Shown here piece after piece: positions 296 to 63,590 of a stretch of DNA of 64,000 bases. Each line of letters begins with the position of its first letter. The stretch's first letter is position 1. The stretch is taken from NCBI RefSeq assembly GCF_000217715.1, contig NC_015666.1:1562270-1626269 (forward strand), read 5' to 3'. The position numbers were made by a program, and so were the translations under genes. The notes under the pieces are model-generated. The model had not been told where the DNA came from. It saw only the letters and a list, made by a program, of their open reading frames with translations, and did not search any database. Source of the stretch: Halopiger xanaduensis SH-6 (GTDB lineage Archaea; Halobacteriota; Halobacteria; Halobacteriales; Natrialbaceae).

Positions 296-320
296 TCGCA
301 CTCATACGTAGCCGCCGAGG

Positions 321-332
321 GAAACATAAGGG
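321..332 (-). promoter_or_regulatory. TATA-like box of tRNA-Tyr
   Basis: On the minus strand the sequence CCCTTATGTTTC lies about 26-37 bases upstream of the tRNA 5' end, the usual distance for an archaeal TATA box. The assignment rests on position and base composition only. Confidence 0.45.
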
Positions 333-423
333 TTATCATTCGAACCGAACCCGAACCTGTCAGGACCGATGAACGGCAGAATGATTGATATGGGTGGCGT
401 TTCAATGTGGTAGTATCCGCCCC

Positions 424-52842: not shown

Positions 52843-53916
52843 TTAGAGTCCGAGGTAGCCCGCGTTCGGAAGCACGCCCACCAGGTACAGCACCCCGAGG
52901 ACGAACATGAACGCCGCGATGGCCATCGCCGGCGGGTCGACGTGGGTCCCGGAGTGGGAGTAGAACACCCGCTGGGAGAGTTCGCCGATGAGGGCGCTGA
53001 TCGCGCCGAACGCGCCGGCGACGAGCAGGATGACCGGATCGCTGCCGACGACCGACGCCGCGATCACCGCGCCCGTCGAGCCCAGCAGCGTGATGTGGTG
53101 GGTGACGGGAATCTTCTCGACGCCGAGGTTGAGGAACAGCAGGCTCATCGCCGAGATCGCGTAGCCCAGGAAGATGCTCCCGGTCTCGAGCCAGATGAAC
53201 CCGCCGAGGAGGCCGCCGACGACGCCGATGGTGGCGACGCCGGACCACTCGTACTGGTGGGGGAGCCACGGCTCGGTCGCCAGCCGGTCGGTCTCCACGC
53301 CACCGTCGGCCGCCACGCGCTTCTCCTCGCGCTCGAACGGCGACATGTCGAGGACGCTCGAGCCGCCGACCTTGCCGACGAGCGGATAGTCGAACACGAT
53401 TCGGGCTAGGAAGGCCGTGGCGACGACCGACAGCGCGATGTTGTCCGTGGGGAAGCCGACGCCGTCCATCACGCGGGTAAAGAGCATCCCGATGACGCCG
53501 AAGATCGCGCCGACTGCAAGGATGTCCGGCTTGGTCCCGAACGCGTACAGGATGTCCTTCCCGAAGTGGTAGTCCCAGCCGTCGGGCTCCATTTCGGGGT
53601 ACTTCTTCCCGGCGTAGGCGGTCGCGGCCACGCCGCCGGCGAAGGCGATATGGGGGCCGGTCACCGCGCCGAAGCCGATCGTGCCGGTGATGCCAGTCGC
53701 GATGTCGCCGGCGCCGATCGCCTCGGCGGCGCCGATTTCGCCCTCGAGGACGGCCAGGCCTTCCCCGAGGAAGACGACGAAGCCGGTGAAGACGAACGAG
53801 GGAAGCGCGCCCAGCGCCGCGCCGAAGGCGCCGCCGGCGAGGGCGGCGATCAGCAGGACGACGAAGGCTTCGAACTCCATGCCGATGACCGGCACCTGCA
53901 GCAGCGTTCCGTACAT
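52843..53916 (-). CDS. Putative glycerol facilitator, polytopic membrane protein
   Basis: 357 residues with about ten hydrophobic segments rich in Gly and Ala (for example VVLLIAALAGGAFGAALGAL, FGAVTGPHIAFAGGVAATAY, DILAVGAIFGVIGMLFTRV, PVILLVAGAFGAISALIGEL, PPAMAIAAFMFVLGVLYLVG). In Haloferax the gene following glpK in the same operon encodes a putative glycerol transporter (glpX); this gene is in the same place. It is not an aquaporin: no NPA motifs. The glpK stop directly abuts its ATG, so the two are co-translated. Confidence 0.75.
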   Translation of the reverse strand: MYGTLLQVPVIGMEFEAFVVLLIAALAGGAFGAALGALPSFVFTGFVVFLGEGLAVLEGEIGAAEAIGAGDIATGITGTIGFGAVTGPHIAFAGGVAATAYAGKKYPEMEPDGWDYHFGKDILYAFGTKPDILAVGAIFGVIGMLFTRVMDGVGFPTDNIALSVVATAFLARIVFDYPLVGKVGGSSVLDMSPFEREEKRVAADGGVETDRLATEPWLPHQYEWSGVATIGVVGGLLGGFIWLETGSIFLGYAISAMSLLFLNLGVEKIPVTHHITLLGSTGAVIAASVVGSDPVILLVAGAFGAISALIGELSQRVFYSHSGTHVDPPAMAIAAFMFVLGVLYLVGVLPNAGYLGL

Positions 53917-55458
53917 CTATTCATCACCGTCCCGCGCCCAGTCGCGCGCTCGGTCGACCGCGTCGTCCCACCGATCGTACCGCCGATCGGCGAGGTCGCG
54001 CTCCATCTCGGGCTTGAACTCCCGGTCGACGCGCCAGTTGTCGCGCAGTTCCTCGAGGTCGTTCCAGTAGCCGACGGCGAGCCCGGCCGCGTACGCCGAG
54101 CCGAGCGCCGTCGTCTCGTCGACGATCGGCCGGACGATCTCCGAGCCGATGATGTCCGACTGGAGCTGACAGAGGAAGTTGTTCTTGACCGCGCCGCCGT
54201 CGACCTTCAGGCTCGTCATCTCGATGCCGGAGTCGGCCACCATCGCTTCGGCGACGTCGCGGGTCTGGTAGGCGATCGACTCGAGCGTCGCGCGGACGAG
54301 GTGTTCCTTCCGCGTGCCGCGGGTCATCCCGACGATGGTGCCGCGGGCGCGCTGATCCCAGTGAGGGGCGCCCAGCCCGGTGAAGGCGGGGACGACGTAG
54401 ACGCCGTCCGTCGAGTCGACGCTGCGGGCCAGCTCCGCGGTTTGGGCGGGATCGTCGATCAGGTCGACGTCCTCGAGCCACTCGATAGCCGCGCCGGTGA
54501 CGAAGATCGAGCCCTCGAGGGCGTACTGGACCGGCTCGCCGGAGCGCTGGAAGCCGATCGTGGTCAGCAGGCCATGGTCGCTCTCGACGGCCTCGTCGCC
54601 GGTGTTCATGAGGAAGAACGACCCAGTGCCGTAGGTGTTCTTCGCGTCGCCGGCGTCGAAACAGGTCTGGCCGAACAGCGCCGCCTGCTGGTCGCCGAGC
54701 GCGCCGGCGACCGGCACCTCGGCCTCGAGGAAGCCGTCCGGATCGGTCGTCCCGTAGGTGTCCTCGTCGCTGGAGGGGCGGACTTCGGGGAGCATCTCGC
54801 GGGGGATGCCGAACTCCTCGAGGAGGTCGTCGTCCCACTCGAGGTCGTGGATGTTGTACAGCATCGTCCGCGAGGCGTTGGTGACCTCGGTGATGTGGTT
54901 CCCCGTGAGGTTGTAGATCAGCCAGCTGTCGATCGTGCCGAAGAGCACGTCGCCGGACTCCGCGCGGTCCTGGACGTCTTCCGGCCGCGCTCGCTCCATC
55001 TTGATTGGATCGCCCTCCTCGAGGAGCCACTCGGCCTTCGTCGCCGCGAAGTAGGCGTCGGGCTCGAGGCCGGTCTTCGACCGGATCGTCTCGGTCATCC
55101 CGTCCTCCTCGAGTTGCTCGACGCGCTCGGTGGTGCGCCGGTCCTGCCAGACGATGGCGTTGTGGACCGGCTGGCCGCTGTCTGCGTCCCACAGCACCGT
55201 CGTCTCGCGCTGGTTGGTGACGCCGATGGCCTCGAGCTGGTCGGGGCTGATTCCGGCCTGACTCAGCGCCTGCGTCGTGACCGCCTTGGTGTTCTCCCAG
55301 ATCTCCATCGGGTCGTGCTCGACCCAGCCCGGTTCCGGGTATATCTGTTCGTGCTTTTCGTATGCGTTGGCGACGACCTGCCCGCGGTGGTCGAAGATGA
55401 TGAACCGCGTCCCGGTCGTCCCCTGGTCGATCGCGCCGACGTACGTGTTCGCTGTCAT
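53917..55458 (-). CDS. glpK: Glycerol kinase
   Basis: 513 residues. FGGY kinase: YVGAIDQGTTGTRFIIFDH phosphate-1 site at the N-terminus, TNQRETTVLWDADSGQPVHNAIVWQDRRT, and a C-terminal ATPase domain with GGAVKNNFLCQLQSDIIG. It phosphorylates glycerol to glycerol-3-phosphate. Bacterial GlpK and haloarchaeal GlpK have this length. The adjacent glpABC and ugp clusters support the pathway. Start ATG at 55458; upstream there is an AT-rich divergent promoter region shared with glpA. Confidence 0.97.
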   Translation of the reverse strand: MTANTYVGAIDQGTTGTRFIIFDHRGQVVANAYEKHEQIYPEPGWVEHDPMEIWENTKAVTTQALSQAGISPDQLEAIGVTNQRETTVLWDADSGQPVHNAIVWQDRRTTERVEQLEEDGMTETIRSKTGLEPDAYFAATKAEWLLEEGDPIKMERARPEDVQDRAESGDVLFGTIDSWLIYNLTGNHITEVTNASRTMLYNIHDLEWDDDLLEEFGIPREMLPEVRPSSDEDTYGTTDPDGFLEAEVPVAGALGDQQAALFGQTCFDAGDAKNTYGTGSFFLMNTGDEAVESDHGLLTTIGFQRSGEPVQYALEGSIFVTGAAIEWLEDVDLIDDPAQTAELARSVDSTDGVYVVPAFTGLGAPHWDQRARGTIVGMTRGTRKEHLVRATLESIAYQTRDVAEAMVADSGIEMTSLKVDGGAVKNNFLCQLQSDIIGSEIVRPIVDETTALGSAYAAGLAVGYWNDLEELRDNWRVDREFKPEMERDLADRRYDRWDDAVDRARDWARDGDE

Positions 55459-55756
55459 GAGAGCTTACCCCAGATTCCACGCGACATCTTTACCGACGGT
55501 CGCGTGCTATCGGTAAACACATCCGACAATCATTATAAATGTTACTGTAATATGTGGAACTGAATAATTATCGTGAATAATACAAATTCGAAGAAACGAT
55601 TGATACTGGCCGTATACCGTCCGATAATCGATCATATCTCGAACTACCCATCACGGGTAGGGATGCGCTCGAGATTCGCCTCGATTCTCGTTATGGCCGA
55701 TTCGGCATCAGCGATAAAATAATGGTGCGGCGGAATAGTAGACCTATGTGAAGGGA
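55459..55756. promoter_or_regulatory. Divergent glpK / glpA promoter region
   Basis: 298 AT-rich bases between the starts of glpK and glpA. TGAATAAT occurs as a direct repeat at 55561-55568 and 55574-55581 (13 bases apart, near one helical turn). AT-rich TATA candidates include the ATTATAAATG stretch near 55532-55541 for glpK and the GATAAAATAATGG stretch near 55712-55724 for glpA. A tiny ATG-TGA pair at 55745 is not a gene. A regulator site is likely but not identified. Confidence 0.5.
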
Positions 55757-57484
55757 ATGGCACGGGACACCGAGGTCCTCGTAATCGGCGGCGGGTCGAC
55801 CGGCTGCGGCATCGCCCGGGATCTGGCGATGCGCGGCCTCGAGGTCACCCTCGTCGAGCGAGGCAATCTGACGGACGGCACGACCGGCCGAATGCACGGA
55901 CTCCTCCACAGCGGCGGCCGGTACGCCGTCTCGGATCAGGCGAGCGCGACCGAGTGCATCGAAGAAAACGAGATCCTGCGCGATATCGCCGGCCACTGCG
56001 TCGAGGAGACCGGCGGCCTGTTCGTCCAGCGGCCCGAGGACTCGGACGACTACTTCCGGGAGAAACTCGAGGGCTGTCGCGACTGCGGCATTCCGGCCCG
56101 CGTACTCTCGGCCCGCGAGGCCCGCGAGATCGAGCCGTACCTCGCGAAGGACATCAAGCGCGCGATCGAGGTTCCCGACGGTGCCGTCGATCCGTTCCGG
56201 CTCTGCGTCGCGAACGCGATCGATGCCGAGCGCCACGGCGCGCGCGTCGAGACCCACGCCGAGGTGATCGACCTCCTCCGCGAGGGCGACGACGTCTACG
56301 GCGTCGAGGTCCGCCACGACTCCGGCCCGGGCAAGCGAACCCACAAGGCGCCCGGAACCACCGAGGAGATCACCGCCGAGTACGTTGTCAACGCCAGCGG
56401 GGCGTGGGCCGGGCAGATCGGCGCGATGGCCGACTTAGACATCGAGGTTCGACCTTCGAAGGGCGTGATGACCATCATGAACGTCCGGCAGGTCGACACC
56501 GTCGTCAACCGCTGCCGGCCGAAGGGCGACGCGGACATCATCGTCCCCCACGAGACGACGGCCATCCTCGGCACCACGGACGAAGAGGTCGAGGACCCGG
56601 ACGACTACCCCGAGGAGCAGTGGGAGGTCGACCAGATGATCGACACCCTCTCGGAACTCGTCCCCATCCTCGAGGAGGCCCGGACGATCCGCTCCTTCTG
56701 GGGCGTCCGGCCGCTGTACGAGCCGCCGGGGACCGGCACGCAGGATCCGACGGACATCACGCGCGATTTCTTCCTGCTGGACCACGCCGACCGCGACGAG
56801 GTGTCGGGAATCTCGAGCATTGTCGGCGGCAAGTTCACGACCTACCGCGCGATGGCCGAGGAGATTTCGAACCACGTCTGCGAGAAGTTGGGCGTCGATG
56901 CGCGGTGTGCGACGGCCGAGGAACCGCTGCCCGGCAGCGAGGACCTGTCGGTGCTCGAGGAGGGTATGGACGACTTCGGCCTTCGGTCCCCGGTGGCCCG
57001 CCGTAGCAAGCAGCGGCTGGGGAGTCGCGCGAAGGAGGTACTCGAGGGCGACGGCGCCAACCCCGTGATCTGCCAGTGCGAGGGCGTCACGCGCGCGGAG
57101 ATTCGGGACGCGATCGAACAATCGGGCTCGGATTTGAACGCCGTGCGCATCCGGACCCGCGCCTCGATGGGCAACTGCCAGGGCGGCTTCTGCTGCCAGA
57201 ACATGGCCAACGAGCTTCACCCCGAGTACGACGAGGCGACGGTCCGAGAGGCGCTTGACGAACTCTTTCAGGAGCGCTGGAAGGGGCAGCGCCACGCGCT
57301 GTGGGGCGAGCAGCTCTCGCAGGCGATGCTCAACTACGCCCTGCACGCGACGACGATGAACCGGGACCGCGACCCCGCCGGCGCGTCCGCGTCGGGACCG
57401 GAGGCGGACGCGGAGGGGATCGAGTACGCCGCGTTCGACGGCGGTCCGAGGGAAACGACTCCTCGTGCGGACGGAGGGAACTGA
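55757..57484 (+). CDS. glpA: Glycerol-3-phosphate dehydrogenase, FAD subunit A
   Basis: 575 residues from [23 protein letters not shown]-binding GGGSTGCG at the start, [12 protein letters not shown], and [14 protein letters not shown] in the DAO domain, with a C-terminal BFD-like 2Fe-2S domain: [16 protein letters not shown] and [10 protein letters not shown]. The GlpA type of anaerobic G3P dehydrogenase. Oxidises G3P to DHAP and passes electrons through GlpB/C to quinones. A GTG three codons upstream is possible. Followed by glpB, 1 base apart. Confidence 0.96.
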
Positions 57485-57485
57485 G

Positions 57486-58808
57486 ATGGCGATCGAAGAC
57501 GACGTGCTCGTGATCGGCGGCGGCATCGCCGGTTCGATGGCCGCGCTAGTCGCCGCGGACCGCGGCGCGCGGGTTCGGCTGGTCACGCATAAGGAGAGCA
57601 CGCTCCGAAACGCCAGCGGACTGGTCGACGTGTTGGGGTACACGCCCGAGGGAGAGGGACCGCTCGCGGAGCCGTTCGACGCCCTCGAGGACCTCCCCGA
57701 GGAGCATCCCTACGAGCGGGTCGGAATCGACGCCGTCCGCGAGGCCTTGTCGGTTTTTGACGAGGTCACGGGCGACGCGTACGCGGGCGGTCACACCGAT
57801 ACGAACGCGCTCGTCCCCACCCACGGCGGCACCGTCAAGCCGACCGCGCGCTACCCCGCCTCGACGGCCGCCGGACTGGCGAGCGACGACCGGGACGCGC
57901 TACTGGTTGGCTTCGAGACGCTGCCGGACTTCGACGCCCCGCTGGCTGCGCAACACCTCGAGGCTGCGGGCGTCCCCTTCGAGGCCCGCGGCGCGACGGT
58001 AGCGTTCCCCGGCATCCGACGGGACGACGCGAAGGTGACGCGGTACGCACACCTGCTCGACCACGACGAAACCGTCGAGACGGGCGCCGGCGAGACCGGC
58101 GCGCGCGAGGCGCTGGCCGCGACCGTCGAGCACCTCCTCGAGGACGAGTCTCGCGTCGGCTTCCCCGCGATTTTGGGCGACGAGAACGCCGCTGAGGTGC
58201 GGGCCGACCTCGCCGAACGGCTCGGCGTCGACGTTTTCGAGGTCCCGATGGGACCGCCGAGCCTCCCCGGACTGCGACTCGAGGACCTGCTGTACGACGC
58301 GCTCGAGGACCGCGGCGTCCGAGTGACGTCGGGGGTGCCGGTGGTCGACTACGAGACTGGCGGTGAGGGAGCAGGCTCGAGTGCGAGCGTCAACGACGGC
58401 GACCGGATCGATCACGTCATCGTCGACCGCAACGGCACCGAGATCCCCCACCGCGCGGACCAGTACGTCCTCGCAACCGGCGGGCTGGTCGGCAAGGGCG
58501 TTCGCTCCGAGCGGGAGCGGGTGTTCGAGCCGATCTTCGACTGTTACGTCCCCCACGCCGACGACCGCTACGACTGGTTCGTCGACGACGCCTTCGGCGA
58601 GCAGCCCTACGCCCGGTTCGGCCTCGCGCCGGATCGGGAGCTTCGGCCCCTCGACGCCAATGACGAGCCCGAATTCGACAACCTGCGGGCGGCCGGCGCC
58701 GTGCTGGGCGGCTACGACTTCGCGGCCGAGAAATCCGGCGCCGGCGTCTCCCTCGCGACGGGCTACGTCGCGGGGCGGCAAGCGGCCGAGGAGGTGGAGC
58801 AGGCGTGA
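57486..58808 (+). CDS. glpB: Glycerol-3-phosphate dehydrogenase subunit B
   Basis: 440 residues. N-terminal flavin fold VLVIGGGIAGSMAALVAADRG, a second nucleotide motif region near 230 and a C-terminal FAD-closing AAGAVLGGYDFAAEKSGAGVSLATGYVAG. GlpB anchors the GlpA/C complex to the membrane in bacteria. Its start is one base after glpA and it ends 88 bases before glpC; a 30-codon ORF fills that gap. Confidence 0.92.
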   Translation: MAIEDDVLVIGGGIAGSMAALVAADRGARVRLVTHKESTLRNASGLVDVLGYTPEGEGPLAEPFDALEDLPEEHPYERVGIDAVREALSVFDEVTGDAYAGGHTDTNALVPTHGGTVKPTARYPASTAAGLASDDRDALLVGFETLPDFDAPLAAQHLEAAGVPFEARGATVAFPGIRRDDAKVTRYAHLLDHDETVETGAGETGAREALAATVEHLLEDESRVGFPAILGDENAAEVRADLAERLGVDVFEVPMGPPSLPGLRLEDLLYDALEDRGVRVTSGVPVVDYETGGEGAGSSASVNDGDRIDHVIVDRNGTEIPHRADQYVLATGGLVGKGVRSERERVFEPIFDCYVPHADDRYDWFVDDAFGEQPYARFGLAPDRELRPLDANDEPEFDNLRAAGAVLGGYDFAAEKSGAGVSLATGYVAGRQAAEEVEQA

Positions 58809-58900
58809 TGCCGATCAATCGGACTACAGCAGCGACCGACGCACGCGACTCGAACAACGACACGACGACTGATGACCGATCTACTCAGGTGATTCGATGA
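58808..58900 (+). CDS. Possible 30-residue bridging ORF between glpB and glpC
   Basis: MPINRTTAATDARDSNNDTT then DDRSTQVIR. It starts within the glpB stop (TGATG) and its TGA overlaps the glpC ATG (ATGA), exactly the coupling pattern of haloarchaeal operons. The composition (Asp, Thr, Asn, Arg) suggests disorder. It may be a translation-coupling spacer rather than a functional protein. Confidence 0.35.
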   Translation: MPINRTTAATDARDSNNDTTTDDRSTQVIR

Positions 58901-60237
58901 GCGACGCACAACGACCGACGGACGACCACGTACCGGGCGCTGACGAGGAGGAGTTCGAGCCGATTCAGGTCTTCCCCGAAGCGGAGGACATGGACCTCCG
59001 GCCGGGCGCCGACAACTGCTACAAGTGCTCGACCTGCGACACGGAGTGTCCCGTCGCCGAGGTCGACGACGAGTTCCCCGGACCGAAGTTCCAGGGGCCC
59101 GAGCAGTGGCGGCTCAAGCGCCAGGAGGACCACGACATCGACGAGTCGGTGATGAAGTGTTCGAACTGCATGCGCTGCGACGGCGCCTGCCCCTCCGAGG
59201 TCCCGCTCTCGCAGATGCACAACACCGCGCGAGCGGAGTACGTCGAGGAGAACATGAGCAAGTTCTCCCGCGAGTACTGGCGCAACCGCATGCTCGCGAA
59301 CTACCGCACCCTCGCGCCGCTGGGCTCGATGTTCCCGCGGACGGCCAACTTCGTGACGGGACTGTCGATCACGAAGTGGCTCGCCGAGAAGGTCATGGGC
59401 GTCACGAGCGAGCGGGAACTGCCCGAGTTCGCCACCGAGACGTTCCGCGAGTGGTGGGCGAAGCGAGGCGGCGCGAAGGTCGAGAACCCCGACAAGCGCG
59501 TCGCCTACTTCCACGGCTGCTACTCGAACTACAACACTCCCGAGGTCGCGAAGGCGCTCGTGCACGTCTACGAGCACTTCGGCTACGAGATCATGGTCCC
59601 CGACCAGCACTGCTCGGGCACGCCGATGTTCGCCAACGGCATGCTCGAGGACGCGCGCCGCGCGGCCGAGACGAACGTCCCCGAACTCGCCGCGGCGATC
59701 GACGAGGGGGCCGACATCGTCGCCTCCTGCAGCTCGTGTTCGATGTCGCTGCGCCAGGAGTACCCCGAACTGTTCGACTTCGAGGACACCGAGCGCGTCG
59801 CCGAGAACACCTGGGACGCCGTCGAGTACCTGCACGTCCACGAGGACTTAGAGGCCGCGCTCGAGGGCACCGAAGTCGAGGGCTTCGACGACTTCGCCTA
59901 CCACGCGCCGTGTCACGCCCGCAACCAGGGACTCGACGGCCAGACCGTCGAACTGCTGTCGCTCGTCGACGGCATCGAGGCCCACGACGTCGGCGACTCC
60001 TGTTCGGGCATCTCCGGCACCTACGGCTGGAAGGAGGAGAATTACGAAACCTCCATGAAAATCGGGGAGGAGATGTTCGAGCACATGGACGCCGCCGACG
60101 CCGAGCAGGGCCTGACGGAGTGTCCGACCTGCTCGATGCAGATGGAACACGGCACCGGCTACGAGATCACCCACACGCTCGAGGTCCTCGAGGCGGCGCT
60201 GGTCGGGGACGGAGCGGCGAACGCCGCGGAGCGATAA
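58897..60237 (+). CDS. glpC: Glycerol-3-phosphate dehydrogenase, iron-sulfur subunit C
   Basis: 446 residues. Two 4Fe-4S clusters near the N-terminus: CYKCSTCDTECPV and CSNCMRCDGACPS. Two CCG-domain regions follow in degenerate form: YFHGCYSNYNTPEVAKALV and YHAPCHARNQG, with CSSCSMSLRQEYPELF and CPTCSMQM. This is GlpC, the electron-transfer subunit to the membrane quinone pool. Same strand as glpA and glpB; the AAA-like gene begins 4 bases downstream. Confidence 0.95.
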   Translation: MSDAQRPTDDHVPGADEEEFEPIQVFPEAEDMDLRPGADNCYKCSTCDTECPVAEVDDEFPGPKFQGPEQWRLKRQEDHDIDESVMKCSNCMRCDGACPSEVPLSQMHNTARAEYVEENMSKFSREYWRNRMLANYRTLAPLGSMFPRTANFVTGLSITKWLAEKVMGVTSERELPEFATETFREWWAKRGGAKVENPDKRVAYFHGCYSNYNTPEVAKALVHVYEHFGYEIMVPDQHCSGTPMFANGMLEDARRAAETNVPELAAAIDEGADIVASCSSCSMSLRQEYPELFDFEDTERVAENTWDAVEYLHVHEDLEAALEGTEVEGFDDFAYHAPCHARNQGLDGQTVELLSLVDGIEAHDVGDSCSGISGTYGWKEENYETSMKIGEEMFEHMDAADAEQGLTECPTCSMQMEHGTGYEITHTLEVLEAALVGDGAANAAER

Positions 60238-60241
60238 GCGC

Positions 60242-61423
60242 ATGGACCTCCGCGAACGCATCGCTCGGCGACGCTCCGCTCACCGGACGCGGGGCCTCGT
60301 CGTCGACCGCGACCACCTCAGCCCGACCGTCCACCGACCCGAACCCGTCGGCCGCGGCCCCGTCCTCGAGGAACTGCTGGACGTCTTCGAACCGGTTTTC
60401 GAAGGTTCGATTCCCGACTCCGTCGCGGTGGTCGGCCCCGCCGGCGCGGGAACGTCAGCGGTCGTGACGGCGCTGTTCGATGCGTTGAACGACAGTGTCG
60501 ACACCGGGAATCGACCGATCGGAACGACGACCCGCGCGGGCTCTGCGGACCTTGGCACGCGGTTCGTCTACGTCGACGCCCGCCGCACCGAGAGCGCCTT
60601 CGCCTTCTACCGAACCGTCCTCGCTGAGATCTCGGCCGAGCCGGTTCCCGAAAGCGGCGTCGGTACCGACGACCTACGCGACAGAGTTCGCGAACGGCTC
60701 GAACGACGCGACCGGCGGGCGGTCGTCGCGATCGATCACCACGACGAACCCGAGGCCCTCGCCTACGATCGCGCGACGGAGCTGCTCGAGCCGGTCGCCG
60801 AGAGCGTGGCGACCGTCGCCGTCGGCCAGCACGTACCCGAGGACTGGTCCGGGCGAGTCGTCCGCGTACCTGCTTACCGCGACCACGAACTCGTCGACGT
60901 GCTCACCGACCGCACCTCGACGGGGCTGGCCGCGGGCGGTATCGACCACGAACTCGTCCGGCAGGTTGCCGACTGGGGCGACGGCAACGCCCACGACGCG
61001 CTGGCGGCGCTGTTCGGCGCCGCAGTGGTTGCGAGCGAGGCCGACGCCGACCGGATCGCCGACCAGCACGTCGAGCGAGCGACCGAAGCCGTCCCCGAAG
61101 ACGGCGTGCACGTCGACCGCGCGCTCGTCCTCGCGGAGACGCGACAGCGCGTGCTCGCACACCTGATCTCGATCGACAGCCGCGATCGACCGATCCGCGA
61201 CGTCGCCGAGGAAATCGCCGAGCGGTCGTCGCTGACAGCCGGGACGGTCAAGCGGTTCCTGTACGAACTCGCGGATCGCGGCGTGATCGAACGCGTCCCG
61301 CTCACGGTAACCGACGGCGGGAGCGGCCGCCGGCCGAGCGGACTCGAGCCACGATTCCCCCAACTCGTGTTTCGGTCGCTGAGCGCCGTCGCAAACGAGA
61401 CGCTGTCGGAGGGTGATTCGTGA
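60242..61423 (+). CDS. Orc1/Cdc6-like AAA-family protein with degenerate Walker A
   Basis: 393 residues. An Orc1/Cdc6-style order: N-terminal basic helix, PEPVGRGPVLEELLDVFEP, P-loop-like VVGPAGAGTSAVVTALFD (65-81), Walker B-like AVVAIDHHDE (160-169), sensor-like VAVGQHVPEDW and the lid GNAHDALAALFGA, then a C-terminal winged helix (about 305-345: ISIDSRDRPIRDVAEEIAER, VKRFLYELADRGVIERVP). The conserved Walker A Lys is Thr71, so ATP hydrolysis is doubtful. It begins 4 bases after glpC. Not a standard origin initiator; role unknown. Confidence 0.8.
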   Translation: MDLRERIARRRSAHRTRGLVVDRDHLSPTVHRPEPVGRGPVLEELLDVFEPVFEGSIPDSVAVVGPAGAGTSAVVTALFDALNDSVDTGNRPIGTTTRAGSADLGTRFVYVDARRTESAFAFYRTVLAEISAEPVPESGVGTDDLRDRVRERLERRDRRAVVAIDHHDEPEALAYDRATELLEPVAESVATVAVGQHVPEDWSGRVVRVPAYRDHELVDVLTDRTSTGLAAGGIDHELVRQVADWGDGNAHDALAALFGAAVVASEADADRIADQHVERATEAVPEDGVHVDRALVLAETRQRVLAHLISIDSRDRPIRDVAEEIAERSSLTAGTVKRFLYELADRGVIERVPLTVTDGGSGRRPSGLEPRFPQLVFRSLSAVANETLSEGDS

Positions 61424-61520: not shown

Positions 61521-63590
61521 ATGACGATCACTTTCGACGAAACGACGGAGCCGGTCGGCCTCGAGATTCACGACGCAATCGAACAGCGGTATCTGTCGAT
61601 CGAGTCGACGGCGCCCGTCTCTATCGATGCGTCCGAGACGACCGACTTCTGTTTCCCGGTCGATCGAACCTGCGGGATCGAGACTGACGGGCTTCGGTTC
61701 GATCAACGCTACTCGGTGACGATCCACGACAGTTCGGGCCGGACCGAGCAGGCTGTCACCGGCGCCCAAACGGTCCACCTCGAGGACCGACCGCAGTTCG
61801 TCGGCCTCAGCGCGCCGATCAAACTCTACTTTCGTATCGACCCCGCGGCGACGATCGACGTCGGCCTCTCGTCGGTCCGGATCTCGCTGGACCGCGAGGC
61901 GACGATCGATCTCGGTGCACGGTCGCTCCACGACCAGCCCGCGGGGACGATCACGACGCCGCCGGATCTCGACTCGATGCTGCAGGCTATCTCGGCGCTC
62001 CCGTCTGCGCTGAAGACCACGTCACCAGAGCGAACGTGGCCGACGCTGCGCGGCCATCCGCCGCTGATCGAACTCGGAGAGCGCCTCGAGATCCCGTCGG
62101 CCGTCGACGCGCCGAACAACGACATCACGCTCGTCGTTCCGCCGGAGCATCTGGCTGCGTATCAGGCGGCCCCGCTGGCGTTTTTCCTGGGTGCGACGGT
62201 TCGATCCGGCCGGAATCCGCGACTCGAAACGCCGCAGTTCGAGCGATCGCTCGCGGTGGAGTCCTTCGGTGACGAAATTGCCGATCTCTTACGGCGATTC
62301 TTCTTCTGTGATTGCCTCACGCGAACGGAGGGACTCTTCCGGTACGAACTGCTCGAGCGGTCGGTGATCGAAGACGACCTACCGTTCGATCTCGCGGCGA
62401 CGTACGACGAACCGCTCTCGGTTCGACTGGAACGCTACCTCGAGGTACCGTTCGACCTCATCGAGCCGCACCTGCCCCGGTGGCCGCTGACGGCACACCT
62501 GCCGTCGGACCCGGAAAGCGTCGAGGTCGTCCCGTTCGTCGTCAACGAACTCGGTCTCGTTCGCGAAGCGCGCGGTCGGACGCCGACCAACGTTCCGCAG
62601 ACGGAGGCGACGAGCGCGCAACTGGTCCGCTCCGCGTCCACGTATCGGTCGTCTGCACCGCCGAACCCGTCCGAATTCGTGGTTCCGGCGGTAACCGGTG
62701 AGTCGATCGAGCACGCGTGGTTCGGCGACGGAATCCCGCAGCACGCGTCGAAAGCCACGATCGAAGCCTATCGCAGCGAACTCGATCGCGGCGCTCGGAA
62801 CGACTCGATCAAAATCCTGCTCGTCTGTAACGACGTGCGGATGCTCGACGAACACGACCTCCTCGGCGACGCGTACGGAAACCGTGAAGCACTGCCGTTC
62901 GACGTCCACTCCGAGTTCGGCGTCGATTCGGACCAGCTCGCGTCCCTGCTGACCGAGGGCGGCTACGACTTCCTCCACTACATCGGCCACGCGACCGAAG
63001 ACGGCATCCGCTGTACCGACGGCGAACTCGACGTTCGAACGCTCGAGTCGGTCGATCTGGGCGTCTTCTTCCTGAACGCCTGTCGCTCCTACGAACAGGG
63101 ACTCGCGCTGACCCGTCGCGGTGCGTTCGGCGGTGTGAGTACGTACAGCGACGTCATCAACGAGGACGCCGTCGAAGCCGGCGAAATCATGGCGCGACTG
63201 CTCAACCGGGGCTTCCCGCTTCGCGGGGCGCTCGAGATCGTCCAGGAGAACGCGGCGCTGGGCGACCAGTATTTGATCGTCGGCGACGGCTCGACCGATA
63301 TCGCCCAGTCCGACGGCGGGTCGCCCGGGATCATCGAACTCGAGGATCACGACGACGACACGTTCGGGTTTGCGGTGCGATCGTATTCGACGAAGGAGTA
63401 CAAGCTCGGAACTTCAAGTACATCGAATCTCGCTACTGTCGCGGACCGTCACCTGACTCCGGGCATAACGCCACCATCTAGCGTGGATAAGCAGTCGCTC
63501 CAAGAGTATCTGACGTGGACCGAACTTCCGTTTCTGATCGACGATCAACTCCACTGGAACGACGGTATCACTCCAGACCCATTTACATAA
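61521..63590 (+). CDS. CHAT-domain (caspase-like) protein
   Basis: 689 residues. Residues 1-425 form no known domain; the first 140 look beta-rich. The CHAT peptidase fold begins near 428 (SIKILLVCNDVR) with YDFLHYIGHATEDG, placing catalytic His at 490, then GVFFLNACRSYEQG, placing Cys at 521. GAFGGVSTYSDVI and AALGDQYLIVGDG complete the fold, followed by about 100 variable residues. The dyad is intact, so a regulated cysteine protease is likely. An SD-like GGAG (61515-61518) and a TATA-like GAATAACG about 30 bases upstream support an own promoter. Substrate unknown. Confidence 0.85.
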   Translation: MTITFDETTEPVGLEIHDAIEQRYLSIESTAPVSIDASETTDFCFPVDRTCGIETDGLRFDQRYSVTIHDSSGRTEQAVTGAQTVHLEDRPQFVGLSAPIKLYFRIDPAATIDVGLSSVRISLDREATIDLGARSLHDQPAGTITTPPDLDSMLQAISALPSALKTTSPERTWPTLRGHPPLIELGERLEIPSAVDAPNNDITLVVPPEHLAAYQAAPLAFFLGATVRSGRNPRLETPQFERSLAVESFGDEIADLLRRFFFCDCLTRTEGLFRYELLERSVIEDDLPFDLAATYDEPLSVRLERYLEVPFDLIEPHLPRWPLTAHLPSDPESVEVVPFVVNELGLVREARGRTPTNVPQTEATSAQLVRSASTYRSSAPPNPSEFVVPAVTGESIEHAWFGDGIPQHASKATIEAYRSELDRGARNDSIKILLVCNDVRMLDEHDLLGDAYGNREALPFDVHSEFGVDSDQLASLLTEGGYDFLHYIGHATEDGIRCTDGELDVRTLESVDLGVFFLNACRSYEQGLALTRRGAFGGVSTYSDVINEDAVEAGEIMARLLNRGFPLRGALEIVQENAALGDQYLIVGDGSTDIAQSDGGSPGIIELEDHDDDTFGFAVRSYSTKEYKLGTSSTSNLATVADRHLTPGITPPSSVDKQSLQEYLTWTELPFLIDDQLHWNDGITPDPFT

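Follow-up and report, generated by a model that had tools for sequence, protein, structure and literature searches.

The gene directly behind glpC in the 64,000-nucleotide stretch of Halopiger xanaduensis SH-6 DNA analysed here (hereafter the window) probably encodes a transcription regulator dedicated to glycerol catabolism, derived from Orc1/Cdc6 and working without ATP hydrolysis. That this Orc-like protein regulates the glp genes is in our estimate very likely, and there are good grounds to think that it does so through an inverted repeat, TTTACYG-N15-CRGTAAA; that it acts there as a repressor is the direction we favour, with some reserve. The features concerned are collected in Table 1.

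Table 1. Features of the glp region, in window positions, and of the Orc-like protein, in residues
Feature	Position	Strand	Evidence and remarks
357-aa ORF directly behind glpK	52843..53916	-	ORF; no Pfam match
glpK, glycerol kinase, divergent from glpA	53917..55458	-	TIGR01311, 714.7 bits (cutoff 590.35)
Candidate glpK operator	55489..55517		TTTACCG-N15-CGGTAAA (14/14); between glpK and its TATA-like element
TATA-like element of glpK	55531..55541	-	CATTATAAATG on + strand; putative TATA role
Weak candidate glpA operator	55690..55718		10/14; right half overlaps glpA TATA-like element
TATA-like element of glpA	55712..55724	+	CGATAAAATAATG; putative TATA role
glpA	55748..57484	+	TIGR03377, 745.5 bits (cutoff 552.8)
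glpB	57465..58808	+	PRK05329.1-5, 743.9 bits (cutoff 349); start codon per ORF finder
glpC, anaerobic glycerol-3-phosphate dehydrogenase subunit C	58897..60237	+	NCBIfam PRK11168, 586.8 bits (cutoff 278)
glp-linked Orc1/Cdc6-like gene	60242..61423	+	393 aa; ORF, profile and model evidence
Domains of the Orc-like protein	residues ~18-200; 219-282; ~297-391		AAA+; Cdc6-type lid; C-terminal winged helix
Motifs of the Orc-like protein			Walker A GPAGAGTS; Walker B D165-H166; Q196 at sensor-1 position; H251 at sensor-2 position

By its fold, consisting of AAA+ domain, Cdc6-type lid and winged helix, the protein belongs to the Orc1/Cdc6 superfamily, as the first-pass annotation had recognised from the reading frame. 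Pfam matched AAA_16 (6e-14), AAA_22 and Cdc6_lid (1.3e-6), the lid being found in 43 of 47 family members at E 0.01, and the orc1/cdc6 initiator model TIGR02928 scored 83.9 bits, under its curated cutoff of 181.3. A profile comparison reached 2qby_A at 1.4e-28. The AlphaFold2 model, built with 47 relatives, had a mean pLDDT of 92.3; its best solved matches in Foldseek were archaeal Orc1/Cdc6 proteins (2qby_A, 9.6e-17), and VIA-align superimposed 333 residues on 2v1u_A with Z 23.5 and rmsd 5.6, other families starting only at Z 14.8. The stretch at VPESGVGTDDLRDRV corresponds in the alignment to VPFTGLSIAELYRRL of S. solfataricus Orc1-1, which we take to be the initiator-specific motif (ISM), a region that is retained. 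An unrelated AAA regulator, which had been named as the alternative, or a STAND NTPase finds no support for the ATPase part, as nSTAND1 matches weakly and Orc1/Cdc6 structures rank first; the C-terminal winged helix, for its part, looks nearer to that of bacterial-type transcription factors than to Cdc6_C. Besides, the alignments to 2qby_A and 2v1u_A leave a gap opposite an insertion at residues ~90-105. This loop, in which T95, T97 and R98 are invariant in 47 aligned members, follows the P-loop helix, is modelled with low confidence (mean pLDDT 57 for residues 91-100) and is a candidate ligand loop.

A winged helix is indeed present in the model, as had been claimed, but it does not match the domain expected of an initiator. 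At E 0.001, where the complete listing comprised 15 families, Cdc6_C (PF09079) was matched by none of the 47 members; it was absent among the best 25 of the 33 families matched at E 0.01, and was not found in the window protein even at E 10; five of the seven paralogues from the same genome match it, four of them above cutoff. Instead, weak matches of the 47 members fell to HTH_IclR (20), HVO_A0261_N (16), MarR (8) and Crp (7) at E 0.01, and to the same four families in 12, 3, 2 and 1 members at E 0.001, so that the winged helix seems to resemble, if weakly, transcription regulators of the IclR/MarR kind. Its recognition helix, TVKRFLYEL, carries an arginine, R338, that is invariant in 154 of 154 members.

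Set against 16 other Orc paralogues, seven of them from the same genome, these 154 members reveal a loss of ATPase residues that is older and broader than the missing Walker A lysine first noticed. For the other positions, which were set by alignment, we assume that the names Walker B, sensor-1 and sensor-2 apply. The window protein has Thr at residue 71 within its Walker A, GPAGAGTSA; of the 154 members, 83 have Lys at this position and 71 have Thr, whereas all 16 paralogues keep Lys. The Walker B had been described as HHDE-like; the catalytic Glu is gone, but Asp165 is kept and the motif proper is D165-H166, which lies opposite the canonical D-E in a profile alignment to S. solfataricus Orc1-1: the residue after the Asp is His in every one of the 154 members, but Glu in 15 paralogues and Asp in one, the second His (167) being a feature of the Thr clade (68/71). 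At the sensor-1 position the members have Arg (86), Gln (53), His (6), Thr (4), Ala (3), Ser (1) or Cys (1) and never the Asn of 14 of the 16 paralogues, and at the sensor-2 position His (148), Tyr (3), Asn (2) or Gly (1) and never the Arg common to all 16. To judge from these residues, the glp-linked Orc family is unlikely to hydrolyse ATP, in line with the first-pass annotation.

In a tree of 60 members and the 16 paralogues, calculated by a quick method with SH-aLRT support and no bootstrap, the Orc-like family forms one clade (SH-aLRT 100) apart from the paralogues, and within it the Thr rows again form a single clade (SH-aLRT 100), corresponding to one change from Lys to Thr. Every named Thr row is from Natrialbaceae; one Natrialbaceae row (L085) is placed elsewhere and has Lys. 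By this sequence comparison the Walker A Lys was lost once, within Natrialbaceae, and since the Walker B and sensor residues are gone family-wide, the Walker A change is a late step of an older loss. A sequencing error or a pseudogene was ruled out, as the Thr is common to 71 of the 154 members in one clade and the pocket residues stay fixed. Because they do so even where the Walker A Lys is gone, the former ATP pocket is probably still used, and it was probably retained as a conserved pocket for a ligand.

The first-pass annotation regarded a metabolic operon as an odd place for an initiator relative, a view that did not survive: position beside glp genes is the rule for this haloarchaeal family and no oddity of this genome. 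A glp gene lay within the fetched flank in 79 of 80 named loci, the exception (L078) being a 4.3-kb contig. Here the Orc-like gene stood behind glpC (46), more than 400 bp behind glpK (25), directly behind glpK (1), before glpK (3), convergent with glpC (2) or divergent from glpA (1), two loci not being sorted; in the Haloferax-type locus L166 it is divergent from a glpABC-glpK row. Gene order varies, and the linkage is therefore not a single inherited arrangement. In the window, 4 bases separate glpC from the Orc-like gene, as noted earlier, and the order of glpC then Orc-like gene on the same strand recurs in the 46 loci with 3-87 bases between the end of the glpC alignment and the start; the two genes are thus probably co-transcribed, as had been proposed. 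As the 80 named loci are the closest relatives, we also sampled low-scoring genomes, hand-picking 80 from the subset with a best E of 3e-81 or weaker. A linked copy was present in 74 of these 80 genomes, and of the 94 places in them, 80 were at most 10 kb from glpK, with a median gap of 1.26 kb. Among the six others, glpK is cut at a contig end in L174, L175 and L185, a glpK-like kinase adjoins the gene in L172, L171 adjoins an ABC transporter only, and L173 is a fragment. Two copies, each adjoining its own glpK or glpK-like gene, occur in G155, G232, G243, G336 and G359, with the exceptions that one glpK is cut by a contig end (G232) and one is 50% identical (G359). Unlinked extra copies were found in G041, G059 and G114 and in the Haloferax-type genomes G040, G152, G190 and G266.

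Across the class, we surveyed 391 genomes with limits of 1e-15 for the Orc-like gene and 1e-120 for glpK. The former was found in 299 and the latter in 342; glpK was present in all 299 Orc-bearing genomes, stood alone in 43, and both were missing from 49 (Fisher 4.6e-37, ignoring kinship). The 43 glpK-only genomes contain solely weaker Orc relatives of at most 80 bits by profile, against at least 389 bits for full-length members. A plasmid origin of the family was rejected, with a relative in 4 of 72,556 plasmid records. As to relatives outside haloarchaea, 53 of 392 genomes of the phylum matched at 1e-30, all 53 in the window's own order.

Several neighbouring genes and diverged copies deserve mention in their own right. 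Downstream of the Orc-like gene lies a 689-aa ORF (61521-63590, + strand) that matched neither Pfam nor NCBIfam and whose homologues follow the Orc-like gene in many Natrialbaceae loci; its LHYIGHA and FLNACRS motifs are, to our eye, reminiscent of a CHAT-type protease. As for origin repeats, of which the first-pass annotation saw none here, a general repeat search between 59500 and 62500 gave only short, diverged families of 2-4 copies among the 20 of 21 families listed. A membrane protein for putative glycerol uptake is described beside glpK in Haloquadratum (PMC5496347), and the 357-aa ORF directly behind glpK may, judged by position only, be its counterpart; L056:4811-5935 and L166:1235-2278, likewise directly behind glpK and free of Pfam or NCBIfam matches, could by position be of the same type. 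One copy, L181 (G266:C1:85722-87935), is in two matched parts with ~1 kb unmatched between them, in a genome that also has a full-length glp-linked copy. L169 and L170 (genus g44) are diverged second copies of 36-37% identity away from glp genes; neighbours of the former include a solute-binding protein and a membrane protein of the MgtC/DUF4010 type. In genus g32 (L171, L172, L173, L178, L179), family copies lie near ABC-transporter genes, of which the binding protein was scanned in all but L173; a glpK-like kinase is also nearby in L172, L178 and L179, of the FGGY family in L172 and L179.

The first-pass annotation missed the candidate operator in the glp promoters, a 29-bp inverted repeat that was read from the divergent glpK/glpA regions. 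The motif was seen in a discovery set of 61 gene-bearing and 10 gene-lacking regions, in which a threshold of 12/14 was reached by 58 of the 61, by none of the 10 and by 17 of 305 shuffles, with a spacing of 15 or 16 in 74 of 78 sites. Its outer TTTA/TAAA is invariant in 42 Natrialbaceae intergenic regions, over which both TATA-like elements are largely conserved. In the window, the glpK site lies 31-59 bases upstream of glpK, counted from the first base of its start codon, on the transcribed side of the TATA-like element and 13 bases from it. It is the sole perfect repeat in its genome, where the scan gave no site with one mismatch and 21 with two, against 5 in the reversed control. The idea that the glpK leader forms an RNA hairpin (inner repeat 55478-55506) was dropped, the pairing being just 55% over the 42 regions.

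Fixed after discovery and before further promoters were scanned, the motif was found in the promoters of 12 of 17 glp loci outside the discovery set, several of which are near relatives of each other; their promoters, 7.9 kb in all, held 14 sites, versus 5 in 211 kb elsewhere (reversed control 0 and 1). Up to 400 bp upstream of glpK, it occurred in 21 of 49 promoters with the gene versus 0 of 43 without (reversed control 0/92), a count that ignores kinship, and up to 300 bp in 19 and none. Excluding 10 of the 43 that had already been seen, and two of the 49 whose contigs are equal in length to those of the discovery loci L079 and L082, the comparison becomes 20/47 versus 0/33 (p 3e-6, kinship ignored). 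Within the mixed genera g37, g41 and g51, gene-bearing regions score at least 12 and gene-lacking ones at most 10, the g41 bearer being a discovery species; in g47 the scores are 10-11 with the gene versus 9-10 without, and in g69 they are 11 and 13 versus 10. A site at threshold was absent from 28 of the 49 further gene-bearing glpK promoters, including most of genus g30, which has a 10/14 variant in common, and the Haloferax-type glp locus, a deep branch, had no site at glpK or between glpA and the Orc-like gene. Among gene-lacking genomes, L195 (88% complete) has a 13/14 site just upstream of glpA, whose start was extrapolated, and G282 an 11/14 site; as the latter genome is 91% complete with glpK on an 11.8-kb contig, the gene's absence there may be an assembly gap.

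Candidate sites also occur at copies outside the main glp cluster. In the Haloferax-type second copies L167, L182 and L183, which are not independent because they come from one genus, a site lies 107 bp upstream of the Orc-like gene itself. Of these, the L182 and L183 copies (genomes G040 and G190) each adjoin a class 1 fructose-bisphosphatase and have a site that scores 12/14, an arrangement that possibly links the Orc copy to gluconeogenesis from glycerol. In L168 a site precedes a second glpK by 29 bp, and in L171 and L172 a site covers the start of the ABC-transporter binding-protein gene. L169 and L170 had sites only away from gene starts, and the scan of the locus found none in L173, L174, L175, L176, L181, L184 and L185.

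The computations show the fold, the missing catalytic residues, the linkage and co-occurrence with glp genes, and the conservation of the repeat together with its association with the Orc-like gene; from these we infer how the protein could act, its DNA binding, dimer, repression and ligand included. Most likely it would form a dimer, whose winged helices would read the two halves of the repeat at the glpK and glpA promoters, and the bound protein would block initiation at both until glycerol enters the cell. In archaea the TATA element usually precedes the start by ~25 bases, and the glpK operator, 13 bases from the TATA-like element, thus covers the expected transcription start; given this position and the overlap with the glpA TATA-like element, a bound protein should block initiation. 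Since the Orc-like gene is the last of glpABC-orc, its product would regulate its own level as well. The former ATP pocket, having lost hydrolysis, would probably hold a ligand, perhaps a nucleotide in members with Lys; that a phospho-metabolite such as glycerol-3-phosphate or DHAP takes this place, above all in the Natrialbaceae lacking the Lys, is a guess that we regard as doubtful. Only a little less tentatively, one may picture an initiator ATPase turned one-component metabolite sensor, in which a glycerol metabolite in the dead pocket switches a winged-helix dimer on the 29-bp operator, with the same design in other haloarchaeal copies. The sensing pocket would then be composed of the fixed His166 and Asp165, the near-fixed His251, the P-loop glycines and the T95/T97/R98 insertion. 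If true, the copies in ABC-transporter/kinase clusters and those linked to fructose-bisphosphatase would work likewise, and 'orphan' Orc proteins would constitute a novel class of metabolic regulators in archaea.

The same promoters could be read in the opposite sense, with the Orc-like protein recruiting TFB/TBP or RNA polymerase in the presence of glycerol. The glpA repeat lies upstream of its TATA-like element and overlaps it, a place also used by activators in archaea. Orc1-2 activates DNA-damage genes (PMC9738581). Yet at glpK the repeat covers the expected start, downstream of the TATA-like element, and a protein bound there should act as a block; moreover, 43 genomes keep glpK without the Orc-like gene, and the site is missing from all of their glpK promoters, so that we think activation unlikely, if worth serious attention. 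A different doubt concerns the reader of the repeat, which could be another glycerol regulator, the Orc-like protein being an enzyme partner or effector without sequence-specific DNA binding. Some gene-bearing promoters do without the repeat; however, the repeat tracks the Orc-like gene rather than glpK (L195, with its site at glpA, notwithstanding), it recurs at Orc copies outside the main cluster, and the winged helix has been retained with strong conservation, R338 included, which together render this reading improbable.

A replication initiator left dormant after mobile elements had orphaned it is another reading, one that would agree with a review in which the 12 non-origin Orc proteins of H. 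volcanii, of unknown function, are held to be most likely dormant (PMC7776575); the Orc1/Cdc6 fold and the ISM region are retained, and orc15 is listed among the H. volcanii initiators (PMC2841640). A gene that occurs in 299 of 391 genomes, in association with glp genes, hardly fits dormancy, and neither do residues that were swapped rather than left to drift, the Walker B Glu for one fixed residue and the sensor-2 Arg nearly so, nor the failure of Cdc6_C to match in 47 members; we consider this explanation very improbable. Passive hitchhiking of an ordinary paralogue that chanced into an ancestral glp cluster is the least credible: one ancestral linkage could be inherited, but the link persists in varied gene orders and with the genes on the same or opposite strands, second copies adjoin second glpK or glpK-like genes in the two-copy genomes, and the Orc-like gene is in none of the 49 genomes without glpK.

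Our preferred reading, a glp-specific regulator, finds its nearest precedent in Orc1-2 of Saccharolobus, a non-initiator Orc1/Cdc6-type protein that likewise has AAA+ domain, ISM region and winged helix and that controls transcription (PMC9738581), a role that the glp-linked family would share. Orc1-2, however, is described as a global DNA-damage-responsive regulator using ATP binding and hydrolysis, its hydrolysis mutant being inviable (PMC9738581), whereas the glp-linked family has lost the hydrolysis residues throughout, and in Natrialbaceae the Walker A Lys too, and is local to metabolic genes. The oriC-linked Orc1/Cdc6 initiators of haloarchaea (PMC3528665) share the AAA+ domain and the Cdc6-type lid with the glp-linked family. 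In H. volcanii, orc15 is HVO_1537 (PMC2841640, Table 4), four locus tags from glpK, HVO_1541 (PMC12366361), and measures 400 aa by its printed coordinates. The glp-linked copy of L166 has the same length, and its genus bears the printed H. volcanii glpK start; the two differ in that the orc15 coordinates ascend as printed, whereas the L166 gene is divergent from glpA. We provisionally take the L166 copy as the orc15 orthologue, from printed length and position.

As far as we know, the haloarchaeal metabolic transcription regulators GlpR, GfcR, TrmB and TbsP are unrelated in architecture to the Orc-like protein. They act on sugar and central-metabolism genes (PMC12366361; GlpR and GfcR also PMC12853182), and none is named for the glpK or glpABC promoters in the accessible portions of these two articles. 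Likewise, in the open-access literature searched we noticed no paper that assigns a regulatory role to a glp-linked Orc. Glycerol is reported as a main carbon source in the Haloquadratum habitat (PMC5496347), and our results point to a local regulator of its use in haloarchaea. Haloarchaea carry many Orc/Cdc6 genes without origins, and one widespread group among them would now get a concrete, quickly testable function. We know of no earlier initiator-derived transcription regulator that works without ATP hydrolysis, and this one would be the first; if our reading is true, it would also be the second case, after Orc1-2, of a replication initiator turned transcription regulator.
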